IMG/VR virus record: IMGVR_UViG_3300010399_000048
Coordinates: 1 to 47,082 of that record
Direction: 5' to 3' (one strand)
Origin: a virus
Length of the DNA: 47,082 nt
This document shows positions 1 through 13,889 of the stretch, piece by piece (within the stretch, counting starts at the first letter, position 1; every line of letters starts with the position of its first letter). The notes below the pieces were generated by a model. That model ran no database searches and was not told where the DNA came from. It saw only the letters and a list, made by a program, of their open reading frames with translations. The position numbers were made by a program, and so were the translations under genes.

Positions 1-302
1 CTTGTCCCGCTACGGTACGACTAGATATGGTATGTGTACCATGTCCGTTTTTGTACCAACTTGGCAGGATCCAATCCCATTCTTGCCTTGTGTCCGAATT
101 TCCCTGTTTAATTCTCAAATTCCGATTTGCGCACATCTGTTCCGTTTTCACGTCATGTATGCACAACGTCTTTACGATCCTGATTGGCGTCTTTGGTACT
201 ATGTCCATTATAGCTCGCTGTCGAGCTAATGCACTGTCAGAAACTTGACAGTGAGTTATATATCCACATATGATGACATGCCCGAGAATGTCCTGTTTGG
301 TG
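1..302. other. Non-coding junction between two cassette groups
   Basis: I see no convincing gene. Bases 42-57 carry the usual ATGTCCG/T-rich boundary word of the cassettes, and on the minus strand bases 1-10 end in a GGGACAAG leader like the ribosome sites of the other cassettes, so another cassette gene probably starts just left of the window. Bases 104-128 match the element found at 3396-3419 and 5009-5032, which stands about 60-80 bases upstream of the first gene of each cassette group. Two hairpins lie at 211-228 and 232-253. Confidence 0.5.
211..253 (-). terminator. Paired hairpins downstream of the last cassette gene
   Basis: Two perfect adjacent hairpins: TAGCTCG/CGAGCTA with a 4-base loop (211-228) and CACTGTCA/TGACAGTG with a 6-base loop (232-253). 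They lie just after the stop of the minus-strand gene at 303-518 and could end or punctuate that transcript. There is no clear T-run, so they could equally be operators; the function is inferred from position. Confidence 0.4.
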
Positions 303-553
303 CTAGTCTAGGTCATACTCGTAGATTGGTACTACTCCGTAGTAGAATTCGGCATATCCGATAGGTTCATCCAGTTCGTCGGATTCGTCTTCAATTTCCA
401 CTCTGTGCGTTCCGACGTAATTGTCCGGTTCGCACGCATCGCACCCTTCACACTCTTCGTGCATTAAGCGCTGATTTTCCGCTTCTTCCAGAAAGTCACG
501 TTCCTGGTCATTGTCCATTTTTGCCCCTTATGTCAGGAGCATGTCATCATATG
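267..553. repeat. Private inverted repeat around cassette gene 303-518
   Basis: Arms at 267-281 and 539-553 are perfect reverse complements (15 bp, CATATGATGACATGC). Shorter than the arms of the other cassettes, and the ATGTCCG inner end is displaced, but it encloses the gene in the same way. Confidence 0.7.
303..518 (-). CDS. Small acidic cassette protein, 71 aa
   Basis: I do not recognise this protein. It is very acidic (runs such as EIEDESDELDEP) and contains a C-x2-C-x2-C cluster (CEGCDAC, about residues 23-29) that could bind a metal. The start is the ATG at 518, preceded on the minus strand by AAGGGGCAAAA. It is the last gene of the cassette group transcribed leftwards from about 3.4 kb. 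It is enclosed by a perfect 15-bp inverted repeat. The high acidity resembles small early phage proteins, including DNA mimics, but that is only a compositional hint. Confidence 0.7.
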   Translation of the reverse strand: MDNDQERDFLEEAENQRLMHEECEGCDACEPDNYVGTHRVEIEDESDELDEPIGYAEFYYGVVPIYEYDLD

Positions 554-554
554 A

Positions 555-931
555 GGATATACAACATTAGACCGGCATGTCTAATTTGTGCTTGTTATGC
601 GAGTTGTCCGACTTCCCACAGATTGTCACAGTTGTTATAGCTGTCTGTGGAATATTCGGCATTCTCGTGATAGTTGCACATTTGCACCCAATGTACCCTT
701 ACAATGGGATTGTGCAGCGTAGGCTGGGTTTGGATGATTCCTACGCATACGTCGAGTCTGTCCGGTTCGTCCCGAATGTCTGTGTTGAGCGATTCGCACG
801 GAAAGTACCCGTGTTCCTCGCAATCCTCTACTTCGTACCGTTTTACGATGGTTCCTACCCTAAGAGGCATTTTGTTCCCTGTCTCCCTTTTGTCCGTTTC
901 GAGAGACATGCCGGTTTAATACTGTATATCC
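555..931. repeat. Private inverted repeat around cassette gene 595-870
   Basis: Arms at 555-582 and 904-931, 28 bp, 25 of 28 positions complementary; the three differences are all transitions. The gene-proximal ends read CATGTCT and AGACATG. Confidence 0.85.
595..870 (-). CDS. Small cassette protein, 91 aa
   Basis: No recognised family. I chose the ATG at 870 (protein begins MPLRVGTIVKRY) because it follows the leader AGGGAACAAA at the spacing used by the other cassettes; the upstream in-frame ATG at 909 lies inside the right inverted-repeat arm. The N-terminal VGTIVKRY segment is reminiscent of the small beta-barrel start seen in the neighbouring gene at 2521-2733 (IGTRATYNDELY), which may mean a shared fold; this is a weak resemblance. 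The rest is rich in D, E, N and Y. Confidence 0.7.
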   Translation of the reverse strand: MPLRVGTIVKRYEVEDCEEHGYFPCESLNTDIRDEPDRLDVCVGIIQTQPTLHNPIVRVHWVQMCNYHENAEYSTDSYNNCDNLWEVGQLA

Positions 932-955
932 GATTGGACGGTAAAACGGCCAATT
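929..955. repeat. Repeated inter-cassette element, copy 1
   Basis: A 27-base element starting TCCGATTGGACGG and ending CCAATT recurs at 2176-2202 with 24 of 27 bases the same. Both copies follow the right arm of a cassette where the next cassette does not abut directly. It contains an ATTGG/CCAAT dyad. Possible internal promoter, operator or processing site. Confidence 0.5.
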
Positions 956-1018
956 AGATATACTATGATATTCCTTCTGCTACCATAGTATGCTATATGC
1001 TGACATGTCCGGATTTGT

Positions 1019-1156
1019 CTAGTTTAGACTGATTGGTGGGGGAATGTACTCATCTGTACATCTTGGCCAGAACATTACCCTTTCGGGTACTACGTTGGTT
1101 TTTGGTAACTTTCGTAGCCTTTCGTACATATCGGGCTTTTTGCGCCAAATACGCAT
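1019..1156 (-). CDS. Very small basic cassette protein, 45 aa
   Basis: Read by hand on the minus strand: protein begins MRIWRKKPDM and ends PPPISLN. It is preceded by the ribosome site GGAAAGGAACAAA directly before the ATG at 1156, the same layout as its neighbours, and followed by a stop at 1019. Unlike its neighbours it is basic and proline-rich, and I could not find a convincing inverted repeat around it. No family recognised. The good ribosome site and the gap it fills in the array are the main support. Confidence 0.6.
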   Translation of the reverse strand: MRIWRKKPDMYERLRKLPKTNVVPERVMFWPRCTDEYIPPPISLN

Positions 1157-1182
1157 TTTGTTCCTTTCCACATATATAGGTA

Positions 1183-1524
1183 GATCATACGGATTTAAAC
1201 GCCTATGTCCCTTTTTACTGGTTTTAGATCAGATCGACCGAAACGATCTCTTCGTCGAGAGTGTCGGCATTGTCGTATGTGCTCTCGATGTCGAAAATGC
1301 CGATATTCATAATTTCGCACTCTTTGAGCTGTTCGACCGAAATTTCCTTATCGTCGTCATCTTCCAGATAGTCCGCGATGTCCAACTCGTACGTGATTGT
1401 CGCGGTTCTGGTGATCTGAACCTTTTGTCCGGGTCGGAGGATTTCGTCGCTCTTAAGCCTAATGGCCATTTTTGTCTCCTTATATCCGTTTTGGGGAGAC
1501 ATAGGCGTATAGATCCGTATGATC
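1183..1524. repeat. Private inverted repeat around cassette gene 1224-1469
   Basis: Arms at 1183-1210 and 1497-1524, 28 bp with 25 complementary positions. Outer 12 bases perfect; differences at arm positions 13, 16 and 28. Confidence 0.85.
1224..1469 (-). CDS. Small acidic cassette protein, 81 aa
   Basis: No family recognised. Starts at the ATG at 1469 (MAIRLKSDEIL), directly after AAGGAGACAAAA, a strong ribosome site; the longer frame to 1502 would begin inside the inverted-repeat arm. The N-terminal part (about residues 1-30) alternates hydrophobic and polar residues as in a small beta domain; the rest is strongly acidic (YLEDDDDKEISVEQ and TLDEEIVSVDLI). One of the uniform series of minus-strand cassette genes. 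Confidence 0.75.
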   Translation of the reverse strand: MAIRLKSDEILRPGQKVQITRTATITYELDIADYLEDDDDKEISVEQLKECEIMNIGIFDIESTYDNADTLDEEIVSVDLI

Positions 1525-1527
1525 CTG

Positions 1528-1799
1528 AGACATCCTACTTTAGACCGTCATGTCCGTTTTGTTGTCTTATCCGGCTGCCCATTCCATTTCTGTCGTATCG
1601 CACGTTGTGTCACAGTAATGGGCGTCATAGTAGAAATTGTCCGTTTCTGGGTAGATTTCGTCCTCTTCGAACTCTTTGTAATCATTGTCCGTTAAGAGGA
1701 TAATTCGCGTTGCGTCGTACTTGTCCCAAAAGCGCTGTTCGTCCATTTTGTGCTCCTTGTCCGATTTCGTCGGACATGACGGTTTAGAGCAGGATGTCT
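1528..1799. repeat. Private inverted repeat around cassette gene 1567-1746
   Basis: Arms at 1528-1556 and 1771-1799, 29 bp with 26 complementary positions; all three differences are transitions at positions 10, 13 and 16. The right arm abuts the left arm of the next cassette with no spacer. Confidence 0.9.
1567..1746 (-). CDS. Small acidic cassette protein, 59 aa
   Basis: Found by reading the minus strand between the arms. Begins MDEQRFWDKYDATRIILL at the ATG at 1746, after AAGGAGCACAAA, and ends EMEWAAG. Very acidic, with a tyrosine-rich middle and two cysteines five residues apart near the end (YCDTTCD is C-x3-C). No family recognised. Its place between perfect-fitting arms and ribosome site make it a real gene in spite of its size. 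Confidence 0.7.
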   Translation of the reverse strand: MDEQRFWDKYDATRIILLTDNDYKEFEEDEIYPETDNFYYDAHYCDTTCDTTEMEWAAG

Positions 1800-2168
1800 G
1801 ATATAGTGGCTTTAGACGGGTATGTCTGATTTGTCAGGTTTTTGTTACTTTACGGTGATTTTGCCGCTTGGCAGCCTTTCGACCGTTGCGTACCACTTGC
1901 GAGAAGTGTACGGGTTCGGACCGGTTACGGTGTATTTGACGTCGTTTGTCGCCAAATCGTCGCCCTGCCACACAATGCCGTCATTGCCCATCGTTGTCTC
2001 GTAAAGTTCGACTTCGCTGGGGTTTGCGGCGATTGCGTCCTTAAGTGCCTTTTTGGTCGGAATGTCCGATCCGTCCGACTTATTCCTTGCGCCTACATTG
2101 ACCCACTGTGCCATGATTTACCCCTATGTCCGTTTTTGGCAGACATACCCGTTTAGAGCCACTATATC
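1800..2168. repeat. Private inverted repeat around cassette gene 1845-2114
   Basis: Arms at 1800-1828 and 2140-2168, 29 bp with 27 complementary positions; the two differences (positions 13 and 16) are transitions. Confidence 0.9.
1845..2114 (-). CDS. Conserved small phage protein, 89 aa
   Basis: A well-formed small protein (MAQWVNVGARNKSDGSDIPTK at the start) with a helix rich in alanine and lysine (TKKALKDAIAANP), then a beta-rich half ending TSRKWYATVERLPSGKITVK. I have the impression of similar small hypothetical proteins in actinobacteriophages, but I cannot name a family or function. The start at 2114 follows the ribosome site AGGGGTAAATC. Same cassette format and strand as neighbours. 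Confidence 0.75.
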   Translation of the reverse strand: MAQWVNVGARNKSDGSDIPTKKALKDAIAANPSEVELYETTMGNDGIVWQGDDLATNDVKYTVTGPNPYTSRKWYATVERLPSGKITVK

Positions 2169-2175
2169 ACGGATG

Positions 2176-2202
2176 TCCGATTGGACGGGAAAAGCCCCAA
2201 TT
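2176..2202. repeat. Repeated inter-cassette element, copy 2
   Basis: Second copy of the TCCGATTGGACGG...CCAATT element at 929-955. It is followed by CTATGTCATGACAT (2227-2240), a dyad also present at 3659-3672, so the gap between cassettes 1845 and 2288 holds a regulatory-looking insert. Confidence 0.5.
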
Positions 2203-2246
2203 GTTCATTCTAAGGTAATTCCCTCCCTATGTCATGACATCCTACA

Positions 2247-2475
2247 GATAGTCCAGACATAGACGGATATGTCCGTTTTGTCAGCTTTTAGCTACAACGG
2301 TGGCATTTGCCCTTTGCGTCCAGAACTCGACACCTTTGGCAGGTCTTGCACTTTCTGCCCCTCAATGTCGCAAATGTCCATTCTGCGATGGCTAATTCCC
2401 AAATGTCCATATCTATCCCCTTTTGTCCGTTTTTGTTAGGAGATATCGGACATATCCGTTTATGCCTGGACTATC
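2247..2475. repeat. Private inverted repeat around cassette gene 2288-2410
   Basis: Arms at 2247-2275 and 2447-2475, 29 bp with 27 complementary positions; differences are transitions. The first 10 and last 13 bases of each arm are perfect. Confidence 0.9.
2288..2410 (-). CDS. Tiny zinc-ribbon-like protein, 40 aa
   Basis: Read by hand: begins MDIWELAIAEWTF and carries C-x2-C-x2-C at residues 21-27 (CKTCQRC) and C-x2-C at 36-39 (CHRC), the pattern of a minimal zinc ribbon. Start at 2410 after GGGGATAG. It is one of the smallest genes in the array and lies centred between 29-bp inverted-repeat arms. A nucleic-acid or protein-binding role is likely for a treble-clef or ribbon this small, but no partner is visible. 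Confidence 0.65.
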   Translation of the reverse strand: MDIWELAIAEWTFATLRGRKCKTCQRCRVLDAKGKCHRCS

Positions 2476-2476
2476 T

Positions 2477-2786
2477 AGTACGTACCGGTTTAGGTGGACA
2501 TGTCTCTGATGTCCGATTTGTTACTGGATGGTCAGGAAGTCTGATTTGACCGAAAAGGTCGGAAAGCCCAAATCCTCACCATTGTCGTCTATGCGGAGAA
2601 TGGTGCAGATTGTGGTGATTTCGACTGAATGTCCGATATCCTCCTGGTATGTCTGGGTTGAGAGGATTGTGTACAGTTCGTCATTGTAGGTCGCCCTTGT
2701 CCCGATTTTCGGGATTTCAACCGAAATGTCCATCTTGTCTCCAATGTCCGCTTTCGGAGACATGTCCACTTAGACCGATACGTACT
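2477..2786. repeat. Private inverted repeat around cassette gene 2521-2733
   Basis: Arms at 2477-2505 and 2758-2786, 29 bp with 26 complementary positions; all differences transitions. Abuts the arms of both neighbouring cassettes within one or two bases. Confidence 0.9.
2521..2733 (-). CDS. Small cassette protein, 70 aa
   Basis: No family recognised. Begins MDISVEIPKIGTRATYNDELY at the ATG at 2733 after TTGGAGACAAG; a further in-frame ATG at 2769 lies in the arm and is rejected. The alternation of beta-like segments (ATYNDELYTILSTQ, VEITTICTILRID) suggests a small all-beta domain such as an SH3-like barrel, which is an inference from pattern only. Confidence 0.75.
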   Translation of the reverse strand: MDISVEIPKIGTRATYNDELYTILSTQTYQEDIGHSVEITTICTILRIDDNGEDLGFPTFSVKSDFLTIQ

Positions 2787-2787
2787 G

Positions 2788-3048
2788 AATCATCCAGGTA
2801 TAGGCGTGTATGTCCGCTTTTGTCTACGGTTAGGCGGTTTTGACGGTTATGTCTGCGATGTCGATGTTGTCGTAGAAGTCCACAATCTCATCCTTGTGAA
2901 GATTGTGGAGAATGTCCAGAATGTCTTCTCTGGTCATTTTGTGCGTTGTGTCCAGTCCTGTACCTTGTGCGTTGATTTCTACGATAAAGTTCATTTTGTC
3001 TCCAATGTCCGGAAATGGGCGGACATACACACTTATGCCTGGATGATT
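2788..3048. repeat. Private inverted repeat around cassette gene 2830-2994
   Basis: Arms at 2788-2816 and 3020-3048, 29 bp with 26 complementary positions; differences at positions 12, 16 and 18, all transitions. Confidence 0.9.
2830..2994 (-). CDS. Small cassette protein, 54 aa, paralogue of 4028-4222
   Basis: Begins MNFIVEINAQG at the ATG at 2994 after TTGGAGACAAA. Its C-terminal half (REDILDILHNLHKDEIVDFYDNIDI) matches the C-terminal half of the protein at 4028-4222 (RKDIVDILHHVSKSDIHDFADDLDI) at about half of the positions, so the two are paralogues in separate cassettes. The shared part looks like two short amphipathic helices. Function unknown. The flanking arms of the two paralogues are different, so the arms are not simply inherited by duplication. 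Confidence 0.75.
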   Translation of the reverse strand: MNFIVEINAQGTGLDTTHKMTREDILDILHNLHKDEIVDFYDNIDIADITVKTA

Positions 3049-3051
3049 CTA

Positions 3052-3381
3052 ACTTATCCGGTTTTATACCCTCATGTCCGTTTTTGTCTAGATTAGTAGG
3101 TTACGAGTATATCGTCCCATTCGAGCCTTATGGCCGCTTCGACCAGTTCGGGTGAATAGTAGAAATAGTCCGGGTGATCCCGGTCTAGCTCGTATTGTCC
3201 CATTTTGGGAGGCTTCACCACGATTGGCTCGATTTGTCCCTCATTGCGCAGTCTGTCCATTTGGCGCTCAATGTCCCGCTTTGTGCAGGTTCTGGCGGGA
3301 CGCACCGTATAGGGGTGTATATGGTATATGTCCATTTTTGTCCCCTCTTGGGAGGACATGAGGGCATAGAACCGGATAAGT
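3052..3381. repeat. Private inverted repeat around cassette gene 3093-3335
   Basis: Arms at 3052-3079 and 3354-3381, 28 bp with 26 complementary positions; both differences transitions. The outer 12 bases, ACTTATCCGGTT, resemble those of cassette 4643-4987 (ACTTATCCGGTC), the other first gene of a group. Confidence 0.9.
3093..3335 (-). CDS. Minimal ParB/Srx-fold protein, 80 aa
   Basis: Begins MDIYHIHPYTVRPARTC at the ATG at 3335. Residues 24-45 (RQMDRLRNEGQIEPIVVKPP) match the ParB/sulfiredoxin N-terminal domain signature, in which a helix is followed by G-x-I/L-x-P-I/V-V-V; the end (VEAAIRLEWDDILVTY) fits the helix-strand that follows the GERR region. The catalytic-box region G-E-R-R itself is replaced (YFYYSPELVEAA), so CTP/ATP hydrolysis is doubtful. 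It is the first gene of its cassette group. In phages such proteins may nick or bind DNA, or regulate host genes. Domain call good, function unknown. Confidence 0.65.
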   Translation of the reverse strand: MDIYHIHPYTVRPARTCTKRDIERQMDRLRNEGQIEPIVVKPPKMGQYELDRDHPDYFYYSPELVEAAIRLEWDDILVTY

Positions 3382-3393
3382 CCTATTCTGTCA

Positions 3394-3656
3394 CTGTTTA
3401 GTTCTCAAAGACCGATTTCGGACGATCCGTGACATTTTCCCGATCTGCCGGGATTTTCCGTGTTGTCCGATTTCCCCGTTTCCTGCTACTTTAAGTGTAG
3501 CTCGGCCTGGTTTGGCACGAAATATCAGGATATGTCCGTTTTGTCATCTTATTTCCGGTCGAAAAATATCCCACTAAAACCGGACATATGATGACATGTC
3601 GGATAATACCACAGAAAAACGGAAAAACGGACATTGATCTGTGACTTGCGTCACAC
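3394..3656 (-). promoter_or_regulatory. Long leader/promoter region of cassette group 303-3335
   Basis: No gene. On the minus strand it reads: CRP-type operator (3655-3640), a TATTAT box near 3606, CATATGATGACATG dyad (3584-3597), a TTTCCGGTCGAAAA block (about 3552-3565), and finally the element at 3396-3419 about 60 bases before the first ATG. The same elements in the same order occur at 5009-5258 ahead of the other group, so the two leaders are diverged duplicates. Where transcription starts cannot be told from sequence alone. Confidence 0.55.
3640..3655. promoter_or_regulatory. CRP/FNR-type operator, TGTGA-N6-TCACA
   Basis: TGTGACTTGCGTCACA is a perfect match to the half-sites of the CRP-family consensus and also fits GTG-N6-GNCAC reported for Streptomyces Crp. 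It lies about 300 bases upstream of the first gene of its cassette group and directly upstream of a TATTAT box. Host CRP/GlxR-type binding is inferred. Confidence 0.6.
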
Positions 3657-3696
3657 CACTATGTCATGACATGTACGAAATGTCTGGGAGAACCCA

Positions 3697-3984
3697 GATC
3701 ATCCGGGTATAAGAGTGTATGTCCGGATTGTGCTAAATGAGTGAAAGGAACCTTTCGTACGCTTCTGCGAAATCTGCGGTAGAATGTACGGGTATGTCCT
3801 TTTCGTCATCTTTGTCTGGAGTGTCGTTTATGACCAGAACGTACAGATTGTCCGTTTCGATCAGAATGACCGCTATGCCAGGATTGTCCTTTTTGTTACC
3901 ACATGCACACATTCTTGGCATTTTAACTCCTTATGTCCGATTTTGTGTGTTTTGTCGGACATACACTCTTATACCCAGATGATC
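3697..3984. repeat. Private inverted repeat around cassette gene 3733-3921
   Basis: Arms at 3697-3725 and 3956-3984, 29 bp with 28 complementary positions, the best-matched pair in the array. Confidence 0.92.
3733..3921 (-). CDS. Small cassette protein, 62 aa
   Basis: No family recognised. Begins MPRMCACGNKKDNPGIAVILIE with C-A-C near the N-terminus; a hydrophobic beta hairpin (GIAVILIETDNLYVLVIND) and an acidic linker are followed by a helix (ADFAEAYERFLSLI). Start at 3921 after AAGGAGTTAAA. Last gene of the cassette group that begins at 4931. Confidence 0.75.
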   Translation of the reverse strand: MPRMCACGNKKDNPGIAVILIETDNLYVLVINDTPDKDDEKDIPVHSTADFAEAYERFLSLI

Positions 3985-3987
3985 CCG

Positions 3988-4275
3988 GATCAGCCACTTA
4001 TGTCCTGCCATGTCCGTTTTTGTCCGATTATTGGAACATTCGTCCGAAATCTACGGTAATGTCCAAATCGTCTGCGAAGTCATGAATGTCCGATTTGCTA
4101 ACATGGTGGAGAATGTCCACTATGTCCTTTCTGTCCAAAACGCGCGTTGTGGTAATTTCGTCCCCTTCGCCCGTTTCGCCCAGCTCTGTCTCTATACATA
4201 CCCAAAAACAGGTTTTTGCCATTTTTGTCTCCTATGTCCGATTTGTCAGACATGGCAGAATATGAGTGGCTGATC
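3988..4275. repeat. Private inverted repeat around cassette gene 4028-4222
   Basis: Arms at 3988-4016 and 4248-4275; 24 of the 28 aligned positions are complementary, and all differences are transitions in the centre and at the inner end. Only three bases separate it from the arm of the preceding cassette. Confidence 0.88.
4028..4222 (-). CDS. Small cassette protein, 64 aa, paralogue of 2830-2994
   Basis: Begins MAKTCFWVCIETELGE at the ATG at 4222 after TAGGAGACAAAA. Residues about 30-55 (DRKDIVDILHHVSKSDIHDFADDLDI) are the paralogous helical segment also found in the gene at 2830-2994; the N-terminal strands differ. Function unknown. The pair shows duplication and divergence of cassette contents within one array. 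Confidence 0.75.
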   Translation of the reverse strand: MAKTCFWVCIETELGETGEGDEITTTRVLDRKDIVDILHHVSKSDIHDFADDLDITVDFGRMFQ

Positions 4276-4277
4276 CT

Positions 4278-4640
4278 GATCTATGCGGATTTAGGTGGAC
4301 ATGTCTGTTTTGGTCTAGATCAGACCGATTTTCCAGGGTTCGACCTCTAATGTCGCATTTGGGTCGATTACGGTGTAATTGCCCGATTCGTCACCATTGA
4401 AGACGATTTCGGTGATTATGACCGTATTGCCCGAGTTGGGCATTTCGAGAACTATGTACGAAGGGCACGGTTTGTCCGTTTCGCACCTTATGCAGAATTC
4501 CTCCTGGAATCCCACCATTGTCCCGTATTCTACTCTTTCGTCCATTTCGCCCATTCTGCCTACATATGCGTAGGTTGTCATGGTTTGTCTCCTTATGTCC
4601 GTTTTTTTGGGAGACATGTCCACTTAGATCCGCATAGATC
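4278..4640. repeat. Private inverted repeat around cassette gene 4315-4581
   Basis: Arms at 4278-4306 and 4612-4640, 29 bp with 27 complementary positions; differences at 13 and 16 only, both transitions. The inner part GTGGACATGTCT is also shared with the arms of cassette 2521. Confidence 0.92.
4315..4581 (-). CDS. Small cassette protein, 88 aa
   Basis: No family recognised. I start it at the ATG at 4581 (MTTYAYVGRMGEMDERVEYG) after AAGGAGACAAACC; the longer frame to 4623 enters the arm. A C-x2-C pair sits at about residues 30-33 with a third cysteine five residues later (CIRCETDKPC), and the middle is rich in beta-type segments (YIVLEMPNSGNTVIITEIVFNG). Possibly a small metal-binding beta domain. 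Confidence 0.72.
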   Translation of the reverse strand: MTTYAYVGRMGEMDERVEYGTMVGFQEEFCIRCETDKPCPSYIVLEMPNSGNTVIITEIVFNGDESGNYTVIDPNATLEVEPWKIGLI

Positions 4641-4642
4641 CT

Positions 4643-4987
4643 GACTTATCCGGTCTTAGCACCCTATGTCCGTTTTGACTGTTTAGTCTTCGATGTCCGT
4701 TATGGCTGCTCTGGGGTTAAAGCGGTATTCGAGCTGGTTTGCGTTGTATGCGGCTATTGCGGCTTTTAGCGTGGTTTCGAACGTTATGCGGTCTATGACC
4801 ATTACGCCCGACATGTCGCATGCGTCCCAAGTGTCGCAAATGAGCGAGTATGGGAGACCTAGGTCGGTTTCGGCTGCTTTGCCTAGTTCGTCCGCAATGT
4901 CCAAATTGGCTATTTCGCGTGGAACACGCATCTTGTCTCCTAATGTCCGCTTTTGTCCGGACATAGGATGTTAGGACCGGATAAGTC
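4643..4987. repeat. Private inverted repeat around cassette gene 4683-4931
   Basis: Arms at 4643-4672 and 4958-4987, 30 bp with 27 complementary positions; all three differences are transitions. Confidence 0.92.
4683..4931 (-). CDS. Small cassette protein, 82 aa
   Basis: No family recognised. Begins MRVPREIANLDIADELGKAAET at the ATG at 4931 after TAGGAGACAAG. Mostly helical in appearance, with two cysteines (LICDTWDACDMSG) and an alanine-rich helix (FETTLKAAIAAYNANQLEYRF). First gene of the cassette group running left to 3733, immediately downstream of the long leader at 5.0-5.26 kb. Confidence 0.75.
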   Translation of the reverse strand: MRVPREIANLDIADELGKAAETDLGLPYSLICDTWDACDMSGVMVIDRITFETTLKAAIAAYNANQLEYRFNPRAAITDIED

Positions 4988-5006
4988 CTATTTTTCCTCT
5001 TTTTCC

Positions 5007-5258
5007 CCTGTTTAGTTGTTAAATAACGATTTGGTTGGATTTCCCCGGTTTTTCGGAAGTGTCCGAAATTTCCGTTTCCGCCCTTTGGTACCCTTCCAGT
5101 ATACAGGGGGGGCCTTTGCCCGTATATATCGTATATGTCCGTTTTATGACGATATTTCCGGTCGAAAATTATGCGCACATATCATCATATTCCCGATAAT
5201 TCGGACATATCCGTGCAAAAACGACATATGGGAAGTTGATCTGTGATCTGCGTCACGT
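5007..5258 (-). promoter_or_regulatory. Long leader/promoter region of cassette group 3733-4931
   Basis: Non-coding. It repeats, in order, the elements of the leader at 3394-3656: CRP-type operator (5257-5242), CCGAATTATCGG (near 5200), ATCATCATAT dyad, TTTCCGGTCGAAAA block (5157-5170) and the 24-base element at 5009-5032 upstream of the first ATG. A TATACT box (near 5100) follows a CCCCCC run. Transcription starts cannot be fixed from sequence. Confidence 0.55.
5242..5257. promoter_or_regulatory. CRP/FNR-type operator with one half-site mismatch
   Basis: TGTGATCTGCGTCACG: nine of ten half-site bases fit TGTGA-N6-TCACA, and it fits GTG-N6-GNCAC exactly. Same place in its leader as the operator at 3640-3655. 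Confidence 0.55.
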
Positions 5259-5269
5259 AAGGGGGTATA

Positions 5270-5411
5270 TATGATGATAAATCGGACATATCCGGAATAT
5301 CGGGTGCACTATTATGATGATAAAATAGGACATATCCGTATAATCCGGACTGTGATCTGGGTCACAGATCCACTTCTCAATGATGATAAATCGTATATTT
5401 CGGACATATGG
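5270..5411. repeat. Three direct repeats of an ATGATGATAAA...GGACATAT unit
   Basis: Copies begin at about 5270, 5313 and 5381, each with ATGATGATAAA followed by a GGACATAT(CCG) word; an inverted, weaker copy lies at about 5177-5213. They flank the CRP-type site at 5351-5366. Iterated operators of a phage regulator are the simplest reading; iterons are the alternative. Confidence 0.55.
5351..5366. promoter_or_regulatory. CRP/FNR-type operator, TGTGA-N6-TCACA
   Basis: TGTGATCTGGGTCACA, perfect in both half-sites, with the spacer start TCT as in the classical CRP consensus. A TATAAT hexamer lies at 5339-5344 on the plus strand, just beside it. Third site of this kind within 1.8 kb. Confidence 0.62.
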
Positions 5412-5640
5412 TCTCATTGTAGTCAAGATCAACATTTTTCGGAAATATCATGATTTTTGGTGTATTTGGGTTGAAAAAGGGAAAATCGTCTTAAAATGGA
5501 AAAATCACGCCAAACCAGTTCAAAACTACAAAAATCCGGACATTTCATCGTTTGTCGGATAAATCAAGATCAACTACTACAAAATATGACAAAAAACGCA
5601 AAAGCACATAAAACGTTGCCAAATATAGCAAAATATACTA
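5412..5640. other. AT-rich non-coding stretch
   Basis: I see no gene with a ribosome site. The word CAAGATCAAC occurs twice (about 5424 and 5566), and scattered TCGGA/TCCGGACAT words continue from the cassette region. It leads into the low-complexity block that follows. Confidence 0.5.
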
Positions 5641-6675
5641 TATTGGACTAATATACATAAATTGGACTAATGGAACTTTTTGGCGCAAACGGAACTAATA
5701 CACATAAATTATAGCATAAGCACACTAATACACACGAAATATACTATAACGGTAATATCATAGCATAATGGACAAAGTACTCATACTATAGCATAATATA
5801 CTATAACAGTCATAATATAGCATAATATAGCATATTGGACATTTAGTATAAGAGTTACTAATATACATAAATCGGACATACAGAACTAATATACATGATA
5901 TATAGCATAATAGTCATACTATAGCATAACATACCAAAAGTTACTAAACATACTATATTGGACATATAGTATAAAAGTAATAAAACGGTAATACTATAGC
6001 ATAATATACTAAAAGTTACTAATACACACAAATCATAGCATAATATACTATATTGGACTAATAGAACTAATGCACATAAATCATAGCATAACATACTATA
6101 TTGGACTAAATATACTAAAACGGACATTTGGTATAAAAGTTACTAATACACATAATATATACTAAAAGTTACTAAATATACTAAAACGGACACAACGGAC
6201 ATATGTCACAAATAGAACTAATATACATAATATATAGCATAATATACCAAATATGTACAAAACGGACACACCGCACACAAAACGGACATTTAGTATATAT
6301 GTTATAAATAGAACTAATACACATAAATAGAACTAATATACATAATATATAGCATACTATACTATATTGGACTAATACACATAAATAGAACTAATACACA
6401 TAAAGTATATGCTAATATACCATATAGTACTATAACAGTCATAGTATAGCAAAACGGACATATAGAACTAATATACATAATATATAGCATACCATACTAT
6501 AACAGTAATAGTATAGCATACCATAGTATATTGGACATATAGAACTAATACACACATACAGTAGCATATCATACTATAACAGTAATACTATAGCATAGTA
6601 TACCATACCATACCATATAGGACTAATGCACATAAAATATATGCTAATATACTATATTGGACTAAACGGACATGT
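5640..6675. repeat. About 1 kb of AT-rich word-repeat DNA
   Basis: The block is assembled from a very small vocabulary repeated in irregular order: ACTAATACACATAAA or ACTAATATACATAA, TATAGCATAATATACTAT, TTGGACTAA and GGACATATAGAACTAA. Copies are near-identical yet not arranged as a fixed-length tandem array. Frames crossing it code only for repetitive Y/L/V/C strings without ribosome sites, so I treat it as non-coding. It sits between the leftward cassettes and the rightward late operon. Candidate roles: replication origin, a dense binding array for an AT-seeking host or phage protein, or a packaging-related site. Confidence 0.75.
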
Positions 6676-6762
6676 GAGTCATAATATGAAAAACTATATT
6701 AATTTTCTCAAAAGGGAAAAATCGGACACGGCAGGGCTCACGAACATTGGGAAGAAAATAAG

Positions 6763-6778
6763 TGTCAACGTGTTGACA
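6763..6778. promoter_or_regulatory. Palindromic operator 1 upstream of late operon
   Basis: TGTCAACGTGTTGACA is an inverted repeat with a single central mismatch, sharing half-site GTTGACA with the perfect palindrome 36 bases downstream. Probably a binding site for a dimeric regulator of late transcription. Confidence 0.6.
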
Positions 6779-6797
6779 AAGATTGAGCCATTTTTAG

Positions 6798-6815
6798 GTG
6801 TCAACATGTTGACAC
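6798..6815. promoter_or_regulatory. Palindromic operator 2, perfect 18 bp
   Basis: GTGTCAACATGTTGACAC is a perfect palindrome. Centre-to-centre distance to operator 1 is 36 bases. A third half-site, GTTGACAC, lies at 6864-6871. TTGACA within each site could also serve as a -35 box, so binding here would block RNA polymerase. Confidence 0.65.
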
Positions 6816-6895
6816 AATTATGTTTTCTACAAAAATAGGAGAGGCAGAAAGATCTGTAGACTCGTTGACACAGTGTACAAAAGAGTTGATCTTGG

Positions 6896-6901
6896 TATGA
6901 T
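6896..6901 (+). promoter_or_regulatory. Putative late promoter, extended -10 TATGAT
   Basis: TTGG-TATGAT gives the TG-N-TATRAT form of an extended -10 element 25 bases upstream of the first late ATG and 25 bases downstream of the operator half-site TTGACA at 6865-6870. The optimal 17-base spacing to a -35 box is not present, so this is tentative. Confidence 0.35.
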
Positions 6902-6925
6902 AAGCGTAGAGAGGAGGTGTCGTCA

Positions 6926-7246
6926 ATGGTCGAATATCCAGAATGGGATCCAAATCAAGCACTCAAGAACATGACTATGGAAAAAGCCCTGGAAGGTCTA
7001 GACAACAATATTGCCGTAGCCAAGAGACTTTTCGAAGAAAATCTACCTCTCTCTGTAATGTCTATCTGCCATTTAGCAGTTAATAGTGGAAACGAAGGTA
7101 TCAGATTCAACGCTGCTAAGTACGTGGTAGATCGTACTATGGGTCCTGCTGAGAAGTCTTACGCTCCTGACGGACAGGAAGCTTGGAAGACTGTGTTTGA
7201 CAGCGTGCTTACTGAGGCAGAAGGATACCTGTCTAGAGAGGATTAA
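6926..7246 (+). CDS. Terminase small subunit (putative), 106 aa
   Basis: First gene of the late operon. Begins at the ATG at 6926 (MVEYPEWDPNQALKN), eight bases after AGAGGAGG. The stretch NSGNEGIRFNAAKYVVDRTMGPAEKS (about residues 52-78) resembles the central helix-turn-helix/oligomerisation part of phage small terminases and packaging-initiation proteins, where N-A-A-K-Y-V-x-D-R-x-M/L-G-P is common. The place ahead of the large terminase gene fits. The product would bind the packaging site and hand DNA to the motor. The family assignment is by resemblance, not by a decisive motif. Confidence 0.6.
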   Translation: MVEYPEWDPNQALKNMTMEKALEGLDNNIAVAKRLFEENLPLSVMSICHLAVNSGNEGIRFNAAKYVVDRTMGPAEKSYAPDGQEAWKTVFDSVLTEAEGYLSRED

Positions 7247-12334: not shown

Positions 12335-13446
12335 CGGTCAAAGCTTCTTACTTTATCGATGTATCGGGTCTACAACTATCCGAAGCAGATGACAAGACCA
12401 CATGCTGGGTACATGCTCTCCCAATTGGAAACTATAAGCATCCAGTATATGGAGACATGAGCATTACGGCAGATCGTGTTAAGAGATTTGCTGATAGTGT
12501 TAAGACCAAGGTTCGTGGTATTGATCCTAGCATTAACTACGGCCACAATGGCGATGGTGAAGCTGCTGGATGGGTTAAAGATGCCGAGAATCGTAACGAC
12601 GGTCTTTGGTTGCTAGTTGAGTGGACCAAGACTGCTGTTCAGAAGCTAAAGGAAAAGGCATACAAGTTCTTCTCATCTGAGTTTCACGATGAGTGGACTG
12701 ATGCACAGGGCAATAAGCATACCGATGTAATTTTCGGTGGTGCCCTGACTAATCGTCCTTTCATGAAGGACTTGGTCCCAGTAAATCTGTCTGAAACCAC
12801 AGTAGATACTGCTTATGAGCTCGTGTCTGCGATTACTGGTTCCAGTGTAGACTCCTTGAAGGGGGGTAACATGCCGCTAAGCGAAGAGGATCTCAAGAAA
12901 ATTGTCGATGGTGTAGCTACCAAGCTTTCTGAGAATAAAGTAACGGATCCGGGAGTGAAAAAGCTAACGGATATTCCGGAACTTAAGGCCCTCGCAGAAG
13001 AGAATCCTACGGTTGCAACGCTAATCAAGTTTGTTGAGACTCAGAATCTTGAGCTTGCAACTAGCGCGAAGTCCCTCAAGGAGGCAGACATCGCAGCTAA
13101 GCTCTCTGAGTTCGACAGATCAAAAATTGTTCTTACGCCAGTTGCCCGTAAGCTTGCACAGGATATCATGATGGAGCTCGATGAGCACCTGATTGAGCCA
13201 TTCTGGAAGCTAATGGAAGCAATGAAGCGTGGTAACTCATTCCTAGTAGAGCTAGGCGAGCGTGCAGGAGCAACTGTTAATTACGGATCTCACAAGAGCG
13301 CTGTAACTCAGTTCAACGAGCTTTCAAACAAGCTCAAGACTGAAAAGAAGCTTTCTGATGCAGATGCGTACGAGCAGGCTGCAAGTGAGAACCCAGCTCT
13401 TTATGCTAGCTACCGCAAGGAGCTAATGGAAGGAGCTGACCGGTAA
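12331..13446 (+). CDS. Mu gpI-like capsid protease with scaffold domain, 371 aa
   Basis: Capsid maturation protease fused to scaffold. Residues about 1-165 match the Mu-like gpI protease family (SINYGHNGDGEAAGWVKDAENRNDGLWLLVEWT, then YKFFSSEFHDEW and GGALTNRPFMKDLVPVNLSE). From about residue 181 the protein turns into a charged helical scaffold (MPLSEEDLKKIVDGVATKLSE...). In Mu and lambda the scaffold is also made from an internal start; here there is a strong internal site at 12871. The protease cleaves scaffold and head proteins in the procapsid. Confidence 0.82.
   Translation: MTVKASYFIDVSGLQLSEADDKTTCWVHALPIGNYKHPVYGDMSITADRVKRFADSVKTKVRGIDPSINYGHNGDGEAAGWVKDAENRNDGLWLLVEWTKTAVQKLKEKAYKFFSSEFHDEWTDAQGNKHTDVIFGGALTNRPFMKDLVPVNLSETTVDTAYELVSAITGSSVDSLKGGNMPLSEEDLKKIVDGVATKLSENKVTDPGVKKLTDIPELKALAEENPTVATLIKFVETQNLELATSAKSLKEADIAAKLSEFDRSKIVLTPVARKLAQDIMMELDEHLIEPFWKLMEAMKRGNSFLVELGERAGATVNYGSHKSAVTQFNELSNKLKTEKKLSDADAYEQAASENPALYASYRKELMEGADR
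12871..13446 (+). CDS. Probable separate scaffold protein by internal start, 191 aa
   Basis: Same frame as the protease. The ATG at 12871 is preceded by AAGGGGGGTAAC, a ribosome site as strong as those of real genes. The product would be the C-terminal 191 residues, a helical acidic protein ending in ENPALYASYRKELMEGADR, equivalent to lambda Nu3 or the Mu scaffold, which are made this way. Expression is inferred from the site and from family precedent. Confidence 0.6.
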   Translation: MPLSEEDLKKIVDGVATKLSENKVTDPGVKKLTDIPELKALAEENPTVATLIKFVETQNLELATSAKSLKEADIAAKLSEFDRSKIVLTPVARKLAQDIMMELDEHLIEPFWKLMEAMKRGNSFLVELGERAGATVNYGSHKSAVTQFNELSNKLKTEKKLSDADAYEQAASENPALYASYRKELMEGADR

Positions 13447-13889
13447 TGGCAGGTTCTGGTTCTAATTTTGTACTTGACAAGGGCTATCTGGTTCTGTCAA
13501 CTTACAATTCATCAGCAGCAGCCGGTGTTACTGCATACCGTTGCGTTACAGCGAATACTACAACAGGTGTCATTGACCTTAATGGTACTGCCACTGCTGC
13601 AACTACAGGTATTGTGCAGGAAAACGTAGATGCCGCAAAGGTTGCTACTGGCAAGGTTGTTGCTAATGTTCGTGTACTGGGAATCTCAAAGGTGCGTGTT
13701 TCTGACACACCTGGGTCTATAGTAATTGGATCTAAGGTTGCGCCTAGCGGTACCGGCGCAAATGTTGGTGGTGTAAAGCTAGCAGTTTCAACAAACATAC
13801 CAGTTGGAATTTGTGTAGGTCTTACTGGTACTGTTGCCGCTGGTGATCTTATCGATGTTCTCCTAACGCCAGGTATGGCAGCAATCTAA
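13446..13889 (+). CDS. Capsid decoration protein, DUF2190-like, 147 aa
   Basis: Small-residue- and valine-rich beta protein of the kind that sits between scaffold and major capsid genes. Segments such as VTAYRCVTANTTTGVIDLNGTATAATTGIVQENVDAAKVATGKVVANVRVLGISKVRVSDT and the closing VGLTGTVAAGDLIDVLLTPG match the DUF2190 pattern of capsid-stabilising proteins. Overlaps the protease stop (TAATG). Probably binds the outer capsid surface. Confidence 0.75.
   Translation: MAGSGSNFVLDKGYLVLSTYNSSAAAGVTAYRCVTANTTTGVIDLNGTATAATTGIVQENVDAAKVATGKVVANVRVLGISKVRVSDTPGSIVIGSKVAPSGTGANVGGVKLAVSTNIPVGICVGLTGTVAAGDLIDVLLTPGMAAI

Follow-up and report, generated by a model that had tools for sequence, protein, structure and literature searches.

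The phage genome analyzed here, the whole 47,082-nt IMG/VR record IMGVR_UViG_3300010399_000048 (positions 1 to 47,082, hereafter the window), carries 14 small genes at 255-4987, all on the minus strand, 13 of which are each surrounded by a private pair of inverted repeats. We propose, as the likely reading of our data, that this array is a messenger RNA (mRNA) operon organized like a ribosomal RNA (rRNA) operon, in which a leader with a boxA-type motif precedes leader-trailer helices that each enclose one gene. What was computed here is pairing in the sense-strand RNA, a structure kept amid sequence turnover, a fixed core, and a leader of the rRNA operon (rrn) type; the promoter, the Nus complex, the nuclease, and the fate of the products are inferred.

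A pair finder run on positions 200-5100 recovered 13 gene-enclosing pairs, against 0 in 300 dinucleotide shuffles, and a sense-specific finder run on the whole window gave 14 matches on the sense strand and 0 in shuffles. These results confirm that the pairs exceed chance, and bear out an earlier sequence-only reading, which had 13 of 14 small genes enclosed by matched inverted repeats. The arms of the 13 pairs (255-4987) are 27-31 nt long and 89-97% complementary, with about 160-320 nt between the two arms of a pair; the median arm-to-arm distance within a cassette is 274.5 nt. The match within each cassette described previously thus holds, but not as exact complementarity, given that two fixed core positions differ, and the pair that had been assigned only 15 bp, the first one, in fact spans 255-281/539-565 with 27 bp. 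The proposed plan of the arms was found again: an outer private block of about 12 bases, a T/A-rich core, about 4-5 private bases, and an inward-facing ATGTCC/T. The sole array gene without a clean arm pair lies at about 1019-1156, and its flanks, judged by eye, resemble the remnants of a pair, the 5′ arm carrying a deletion. As to the claim that neighboring cassettes abut, 41 of 81 junction gaps do measure −1 to 5 nt, whereas three window junctions are wider (315, 76, and 251 nt) and the last two window cassettes overlap by 11 nt. Overlaps of about 8-13 nt between cassettes at the array end are seen in the window (539-582) as well as in the phages L019, L020, L026, L029, L030, and L050, an arrangement recurring in several phages in which adjoining stalks (the paired arms) would compete for a single outer block.

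Within a cassette, the start codon typically lies about 24-25 nt after the 5′ arm and is accompanied by a Shine-Dalgarno (SD) sequence, and the stop codon typically lies 7-14 nt ahead of the 3′ arm. When the 4871-nt sense transcript was folded for minimum free energy, 12 of the 13 stalks closed, in support of pairing in RNA; the stalk left open is the one that overlaps its neighbor by 11 nt.

We collected relatives through a DNA pattern from the 5′ untranslated regions (UTRs) and through the terminase, and found that many carry the same type of array, upstream of the terminase gene and on the opposite strand. Across these phages the flank format persists while gene content and order vary, a comparison that the sequence-only reading had proposed to make. 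A first set comprises 94 cassettes from the window and related IMG/VR phages; three of these cassettes contain more than one short frame. In this set, outer blocks agree at 95% of positions within a pair, against 41% when cassettes of a single phage are compared with one another, and the inner variable bases at 94% versus 34%, so that the arms differ between cassettes as had been claimed. The arms of orthologous cassettes have diverged to 55% identity, and comparison of these cassettes gave, as pairwise counts rather than independent events, 1070 pair positions that had changed on both sides and were still paired, 116 that had changed on one side and were still paired, and 47 that were broken. 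More distant phages (L038, L055, L126, L129, L141, L158, and others, with up to 57% G+C) show the same format with different arm sequences.

The mismatches reveal in which strand the arms pair, because a mismatch between arms that reads as G.U in one RNA strand reads as A.C in its complement. In a table of the arms of 82 cassettes aligned on the inner ATGTC, the sense strand shows 59 G.U versus 9 A.C when summed over positions outside −10 and −7, while these two core positions show 114 A.C and 0 G.U. Counted over all non-core sense mismatches, the figures are 75 G.U versus 7 A.C with a core definition that partly used the mismatch class, and 70 versus 21 (P = 2.5e-7) in the first set with a class-free core defined by spacing only. 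A second, independent set, fetched after the rule had been formed, comprises 49 cassettes that differ from the first in arm sequence and G+C; it gave 66 G.U versus 18 A.C outside the core (P = 1.3e-7; 54 versus 16 without six cassettes of doubtful gene strand) and 3 G.U versus 37 A.C inside it. The arms are therefore RNA structure on the sense strand and not DNA elements: neither DNA recombination nor a DNA-binding protein would yield a strand-specific wobble with the reversed class at the core. Wobble bias, covariation, the central two-mismatch core, and the leader described below all speak for the pairing in RNA that had been suggested. Plain repeats are ruled out by the strand-specific wobble and the covariation. 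A C-to-T mutation bias of the sense strand was likewise considered as the cause of the G.U excess and rejected, since the sense strand is A-rich, its GC skew is near 0, and the core shows the opposite class.

Two DNA-level explanations put forward from the sequence are left with next to no probability. Under the first, the arms would be the ends at which exchangeable gene cassettes recombine or transpose, a picture that agrees with inverted arms around each gene and with the variable gene content and order; it does not agree with one-strand RNA wobble of opposite class at the core, with the divergence of ortholog arms, or with the single direction shared by all array cassettes of confidently assigned strand. 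The direct orientation of the TTTAGA core could be taken in its favor, but a direct core amid inverted flanks also counts against it. A likeness to integron or pdif-like cassettes, whose sites are common to all cassettes and are acted on by a recombinase, is countered by the private arms and the strand-specific wobble; recombinase genes were not searched for. The second explanation, with the arms as convergent sense and antisense promoters or operators and the pairing incidental, is just as hard to credit: a T/A-rich core is present in every arm, yet 86 aligned arms contain no conserved −35/−10, no per-cassette promoter was found, and the private bases match at 0.95 within a pair versus 0.41 between cassettes.

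The fixed core mismatches sit 3 positions apart with 2 base pairs between them, and both strands of the core read 5′-C-N-N-A-3′, mostly CUAA or CUUA/CAAA, making it two-fold symmetric. Median stem lengths are 14 bp on the outer and 15 bp on the inner side of the core center, and wobbles concentrate 3.5-6.5 bp from the center on both sides and are rare beyond. RNase III is a homodimer whose two cuts lie 2 bp apart. By analogy, the core geometry would suit an enzyme that acts as a homodimer, RNase III for example, and the symmetric 14 + 15 bp arrangement would be compatible with a staggered RNase III cut leaving 2-nt 3′ overhangs.

The arrays also share a leader. The motif CGTNNCTTNANAACTNAANAGNG stands ahead of a stalk in 20 of 28 arrays, mostly 3-24 nt before the arm, and was found on the antisense strand in none of the 28. 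We searched for the motif core in bacteria, within Chloroflexota only (151 genomes, a group entered via a SAR202 metagenome-assembled genome [MAG]), and found exact matches in 23 of the 151; in 18 of 20 loci examined, the motif directly precedes the 5′ end of the 16S rRNA and shares its strand, and one of the two exceptions is cut off at a contig end. Because 18 of 20 Chloroflexota loci place the motif just before 16S rRNA, we assign the array leader motif to the rrn boxA-type leader elements. The variant bases are AACT[A/C/T]AA in the phages and mostly AACTGAA in Chloroflexota. About half of the arrays also have a TANNCT hexamer about 70-100 nt upstream of the leader motif (72-100 nt for such hexamers in L019, L020, L021, L026, L029, L050, and L126), which would be the −10-like element of a probable block promoter. 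Three copies of TGTGAnnTGnGTCACA-like palindromes that resemble CRP-type operator sites are present in the leader regions of the window (5241-5256, 5350-5365, and about 3640-3656). A second conserved element is found in mid-array gaps, often GTATGCGTATGC-like and followed by (G)TCCTnAAnAATTGGACATTTC...AGTCGG; it lies on the minus strand in L019 (4429), L020 (4495), L021 (978 and 2254), L028 (189), L029 (3749 and 5483), and L030 (4071), and is diverged in the window at 2170-2245 and 932-1000.

Based on these features, we propose the following model. One or a few promoters would start a long polycistronic minus-strand RNA behind a boxA-type leader, in which each small gene would form a loop closed by its own helix of 28-30 bp, made of private 5′ and 3′ arms, so that helices tile the transcript end to end. 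The private sequences would let each 5′ arm find its own 3′ arm. An elongation complex of boxA with NusB/NusE would resist premature termination and perhaps, as has been suggested for rRNA, deliver the 5′ arm to its 3′ arm as the latter is transcribed. The stalks would then be cut at or near the symmetric core by a dimeric RNase that acts on double strands, the host RNase III being the most likely one, which would release short single-gene mRNAs whose 5′ and 3′ ends would still be paired through the inner half-stalk. We lean slightly toward the broader view that this is a general phage expression system, combining boxA-Nus transcription, private helices, release by a dimeric nuclease, and end-paired mRNAs, with the CNNA/CNNA core as a new class of processing signal. 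The sequence-only reading had already raised RNA pairing with RNase III cutting; the pairing that delimits ORFs (open reading frames) stands, while the RNase III part is conjecture.

Several points weigh against this model. The phages are uncultured, and transcription start, cleavage, and nuclease are deduced from sequence alone. No recognizable RNase III gene was seen in the phages, so the host must supply the enzyme. About one-third of first-set stalks are without one of the core mismatches and a few are without both. RNase III sites of Bacillus subtilis are more than 90% paired beside the cut (PMC11780869). A central cut in the array stalks would, unlike at those sites, place C.A mismatches beside it; the cut may lie elsewhere in the stalk, or the mismatches may block cutting. 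As to the leader, in the Chloroflexota rrn operons examined the motif itself is the 5′ strand of a stalk of about 28 bp that closes 16S rRNA, whereas the phage motif is outside the first stalk, mostly ending 3-24 nt before the arm, and later cassettes have no boxA of their own. Alternatively, the CNNA/CNNA core might be read by another nuclease or by a phage or host RNA-binding protein. That core geometry is kept despite complete turnover of the flanks, also in phages with 57% G+C, fits such a reader, but no candidate protein emerged, RNA ligase and RNase III families not being found in the phages tested, and we regard this option as improbable.

A less remote, though still unlikely, alternative is that the stalks are not cut at all, the loop hiding the ends from exonucleases and acting as a translation switch, with the C.A mismatches warding off RNase III. 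Here the end of the 5′ arm would first pair with the 5′ UTR at or over the SD sequence, and the later 3′ arm would free this site. In agreement with such a switch, the inner end of the 5′ arm forms a private local hairpin with its own 5′ UTR, pairing better with it than with the UTRs of other cassettes in 74 of 92 cases (P = 2.6e-9), the predicted probability that the SD is unpaired is 0.54 with the 3′ arm versus 0.41 without it (P = 9e-5), and the mismatches break up the duplex, leaving two helices of about 13 bp. However, the opening of the SD is modest, and is reversed or absent in many cassettes; a simple interruption of the duplex needs no fixed C.A/A.C pair at one symmetric site, and the rrn-type leader is less well explained than by the processing model.

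The closest parallel to the array is the rRNA operon. Leader-trailer helices of 25-40 bp around 16S and 27 bp around 23S rRNA go together with RNase III and boxA; those of 16S covary rather than conserve sequence; in Enterobacteriaceae, boxA stands a fixed 18-19 nt before boxC, which is inside the helix where RNase III cuts, and a Nus complex is believed to keep the 5′ strand ready to pair (PMC10250234, PMC6614801). Like these, the array has complementary flanks that form a long covarying helix around a transcribed unit and a boxA-type motif in its leader, and both designs close a long loop with 25-40 bp, which in the rrn case is an RNase III site. Unlike them, the array has ORFs as loops, many in tandem and each with its own helix, a symmetric C.A core, and boxA outside the first helix. 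The array thus works like an rRNA operon without being a member of that family, given its ORF units and the position of its boxA. In T7-type processing, early polycistronic phage mRNA is cut by RNase III at stems with internal mismatches. The array mRNA would likewise be an early phage message presumably cut to single-gene pieces by host RNase III, but T7 uses local intergenic hairpins while the strands of an array stalk lie on opposite sides of a gene. RNase III acts on long-range duplexes, leaving 2-nt 3′ overhangs (PMC11780869), and in the icaR mRNA of Staphylococcus aureus the pairing of 5′ and 3′ UTRs creates an RNase III substrate (PMC3868564). There too, the two flanks of one mRNA pair; icaR, however, has a single short anti-SD match that represses one gene, in contrast to a tiling array with a core, and the array arms end before the SD, which is on average more open when the 3′ arm is present. 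The extended start-associated sequences (ESAS) of cluster K mycobacteriophages, which the sequence-only reading had named as the closest system, are 17-bp inverted repeats upstream of a conserved 13-bp start-associated sequence (SAS), placed ahead of the gene with a spacer of mostly 4-13 bp and sharing one consensus per genome (PMC3203893). SAS/ESAS and the array are both repeated, gene-linked inverted-repeat elements of phage genomes, but the comparison fails on location, both ESAS repeats being upstream whereas the arms flank the gene at the distance given above.

The individual parts therefore resemble known ones, namely rRNA processing stalks, boxA, phage mRNA cut by RNase III, and 5′-3′ UTR pairing. 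We know of no case in which every mRNA of an operon carries a gene-enclosing stalk, an arrangement known for rRNA precursors, and a search of the open-license literature turned up neither gene-enclosing private repeats in a phage nor the combination seen here, in which each gene of an mRNA operon has its private leader-trailer helix with a conserved symmetric mismatch core. If the model is true, phages have turned the rRNA plan to a new use, dividing a polycistronic transcript into messages that are end-protected and can be tuned independently, and the stalk design offers a natural template for bacterial mRNAs with paired ends. The core would possibly represent a new RNase III recognition code, which the covariation set of about 143 stalks makes directly testable. 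The model further points to a possible part for the rrn boxA complex in long-range mRNA folding, which bears on the debated role of boxA in rRNA.

The distribution of the arrays has limits. None was found in relatives G011 and G013-G016, or in 36 of 55 more distant terminase loci, some of these being too short to reach the array position, and the scanned genome pieces showed no second array per genome, isolated pairs apart. The cultured phages Krampus, Wollypog, Papyrus, and Yappy, which share a distant terminase or primase and were available in part only, have no arrays. Streptomyces phages BillNye, Ankus, Byblos, and DekoNeimoidia, chosen by a distant homolog of the cassette 9 gene and covered in part for some, have at most isolated enclosing pairs; those at 4027-4514 in Ankus (L176) and 13395-13770 in DekoNeimoidia (L178) may have arisen by chance or represent a sparse version of the system. 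Regarding the host, leaders of Actinobacteria have the form GAACUCAA, and the nearest cultured relatives of the window phage are actinophages. Because of this leader form, compared with the phage motif, and of these relatives, we tentatively favor an actinobacterial host. A 6-kb contig (L116) binned with a SAR202 (Chloroflexota) MAG encodes a terminase 65% identical to that of the window, and may point to the host or be mis-binned.

Table 1. Features of the array in the window, listed in the direction of transcription
Feature	Position	Strand	Basis or remark
−10-like TATACT, probable block 1 promoter	5098..5103	-	predicted; 81 nt upstream of boxA-like motif
rrn boxA-type leader motif TTTAACAACTAAACAGG	5006..5022	-	18 nt ahead of first stalk; same motif before bacterial 16S rRNA
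Cassette 1 5′ arm	4958..4987	-	pair finder
Cassette 1 gene, 82 aa	4683..4931	-	ORF layout
Cassette 1 3′ arm	4643..4672	-	pair finder
Cassette 2 5′ arm	4612..4640	-	pair finder
Cassette 2 gene, 88 aa	4315..4581	-	ORF layout
Cassette 2 3′ arm	4278..4306	-	pair finder
Cassette 3 5′ arm	4249..4276	-	pair finder
Cassette 3 gene, 64 aa	4028..4222	-	ORF layout
Cassette 3 3′ arm	3987..4014	-	pair finder
Cassette 4 5′ arm; stalk without core mismatch	3956..3984	-	pair finder
Cassette 4 gene, 62 aa	3733..3921	-	ORF layout
Cassette 4 3′ arm	3697..3725	-	pair finder
−10-like TACACT, probable block 2 promoter	3494..3499	-	predicted
rrn boxA-type leader motif TTGAGAACTAAACAGTG, block 2	3392..3408	-	10 nt ahead of next stalk
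Cassette 5 5′ arm	3354..3381	-	pair finder
Cassette 5 gene, 80 aa, weak ParB_N match	3093..3335	-	ORF layout, profile match
Cassette 5 3′ arm	3052..3079	-	pair finder
Cassette 6 5′ arm	3019..3049	-	pair finder
Cassette 6 gene, 54 aa	2830..2994	-	ORF layout
Cassette 6 3′ arm	2787..2817	-	pair finder
Cassette 7 5′ arm	2757..2786	-	pair finder
Cassette 7 gene, 70 aa	2521..2733	-	ORF layout
Cassette 7 3′ arm	2477..2506	-	pair finder
Cassette 8 5′ arm	2447..2476	-	pair finder
Cassette 8 gene, 40 aa	2288..2410	-	ORF layout
Cassette 8 3′ arm	2246..2275	-	pair finder
Mid-array spacer: promoter-like ATGACA-17-TAGAAT and AATTGG...CCAATCGG element	2170..2245	-	
Cassette 9 5′ arm	2140..2169	-	pair finder
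Cassette 9 gene, 89 aa; distant Streptomyces-phage homologs	1845..2114	-	ORF layout
Cassette 9 3′ arm	1799..1828	-	pair finder
Cassette 10 5′ arm	1771..1799	-	pair finder
Cassette 10 gene, 59 aa	1567..1746	-	ORF layout
Cassette 10 3′ arm	1528..1556	-	pair finder
Cassette 11 5′ arm	1498..1524	-	pair finder
Cassette 11 gene, 81 aa	1224..1469	-	ORF layout
Cassette 11 3′ arm	1183..1209	-	pair finder
Gene without clean arm pair	1019..1156	-	by eye, flanks like a decayed pair, 5′ CTACCTATATATG, 3′ CATATAGCATACTATGGTAG
Cassette 12 5′ arm	904..931	-	pair finder
Cassette 12 gene, 91 aa	595..870	-	ORF layout
Cassette 12 3′ arm; 11-nt overlap with cassette 13 5′ arm	555..582	-	pair finder
Cassette 13 5′ arm	539..565	-	pair finder
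Cassette 13 gene, 71 aa, very acidic	303..518	-	ORF layout
Cassette 13 3′ arm	255..281	-	pair finder
Third boxA-like motif (11/12)	102..118	-	past array end, reads off left end

The window encodes tailed-phage proteins (terminase large subunit, portal, major head protein, tape measure) and, on the replication side, a DNA polymerase, primase, helicase, and exonuclease, with replication-type genes directed leftwards and structural genes rightwards. An Rfam search of the window gave 0 matches, as did a nucleotide search of a phage collection with window positions 1-7000, and a Pfam/PHROGs scan of the small genes gave no confident match. The arrays of the first-set phages encode short, acidic proteins (medians of 76 aa and pI 4.46), nearly all of them without a family match, which may act in host takeover or as DNA mimics. 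The block at about 5580-6700, which separates the array from the structural genes, is AT-rich and holds many imperfect repeats (TATAGCATAATATA, ACTAATACACATAAAT, TTGGACTAA); it is possibly a replication origin or a regulatory region.

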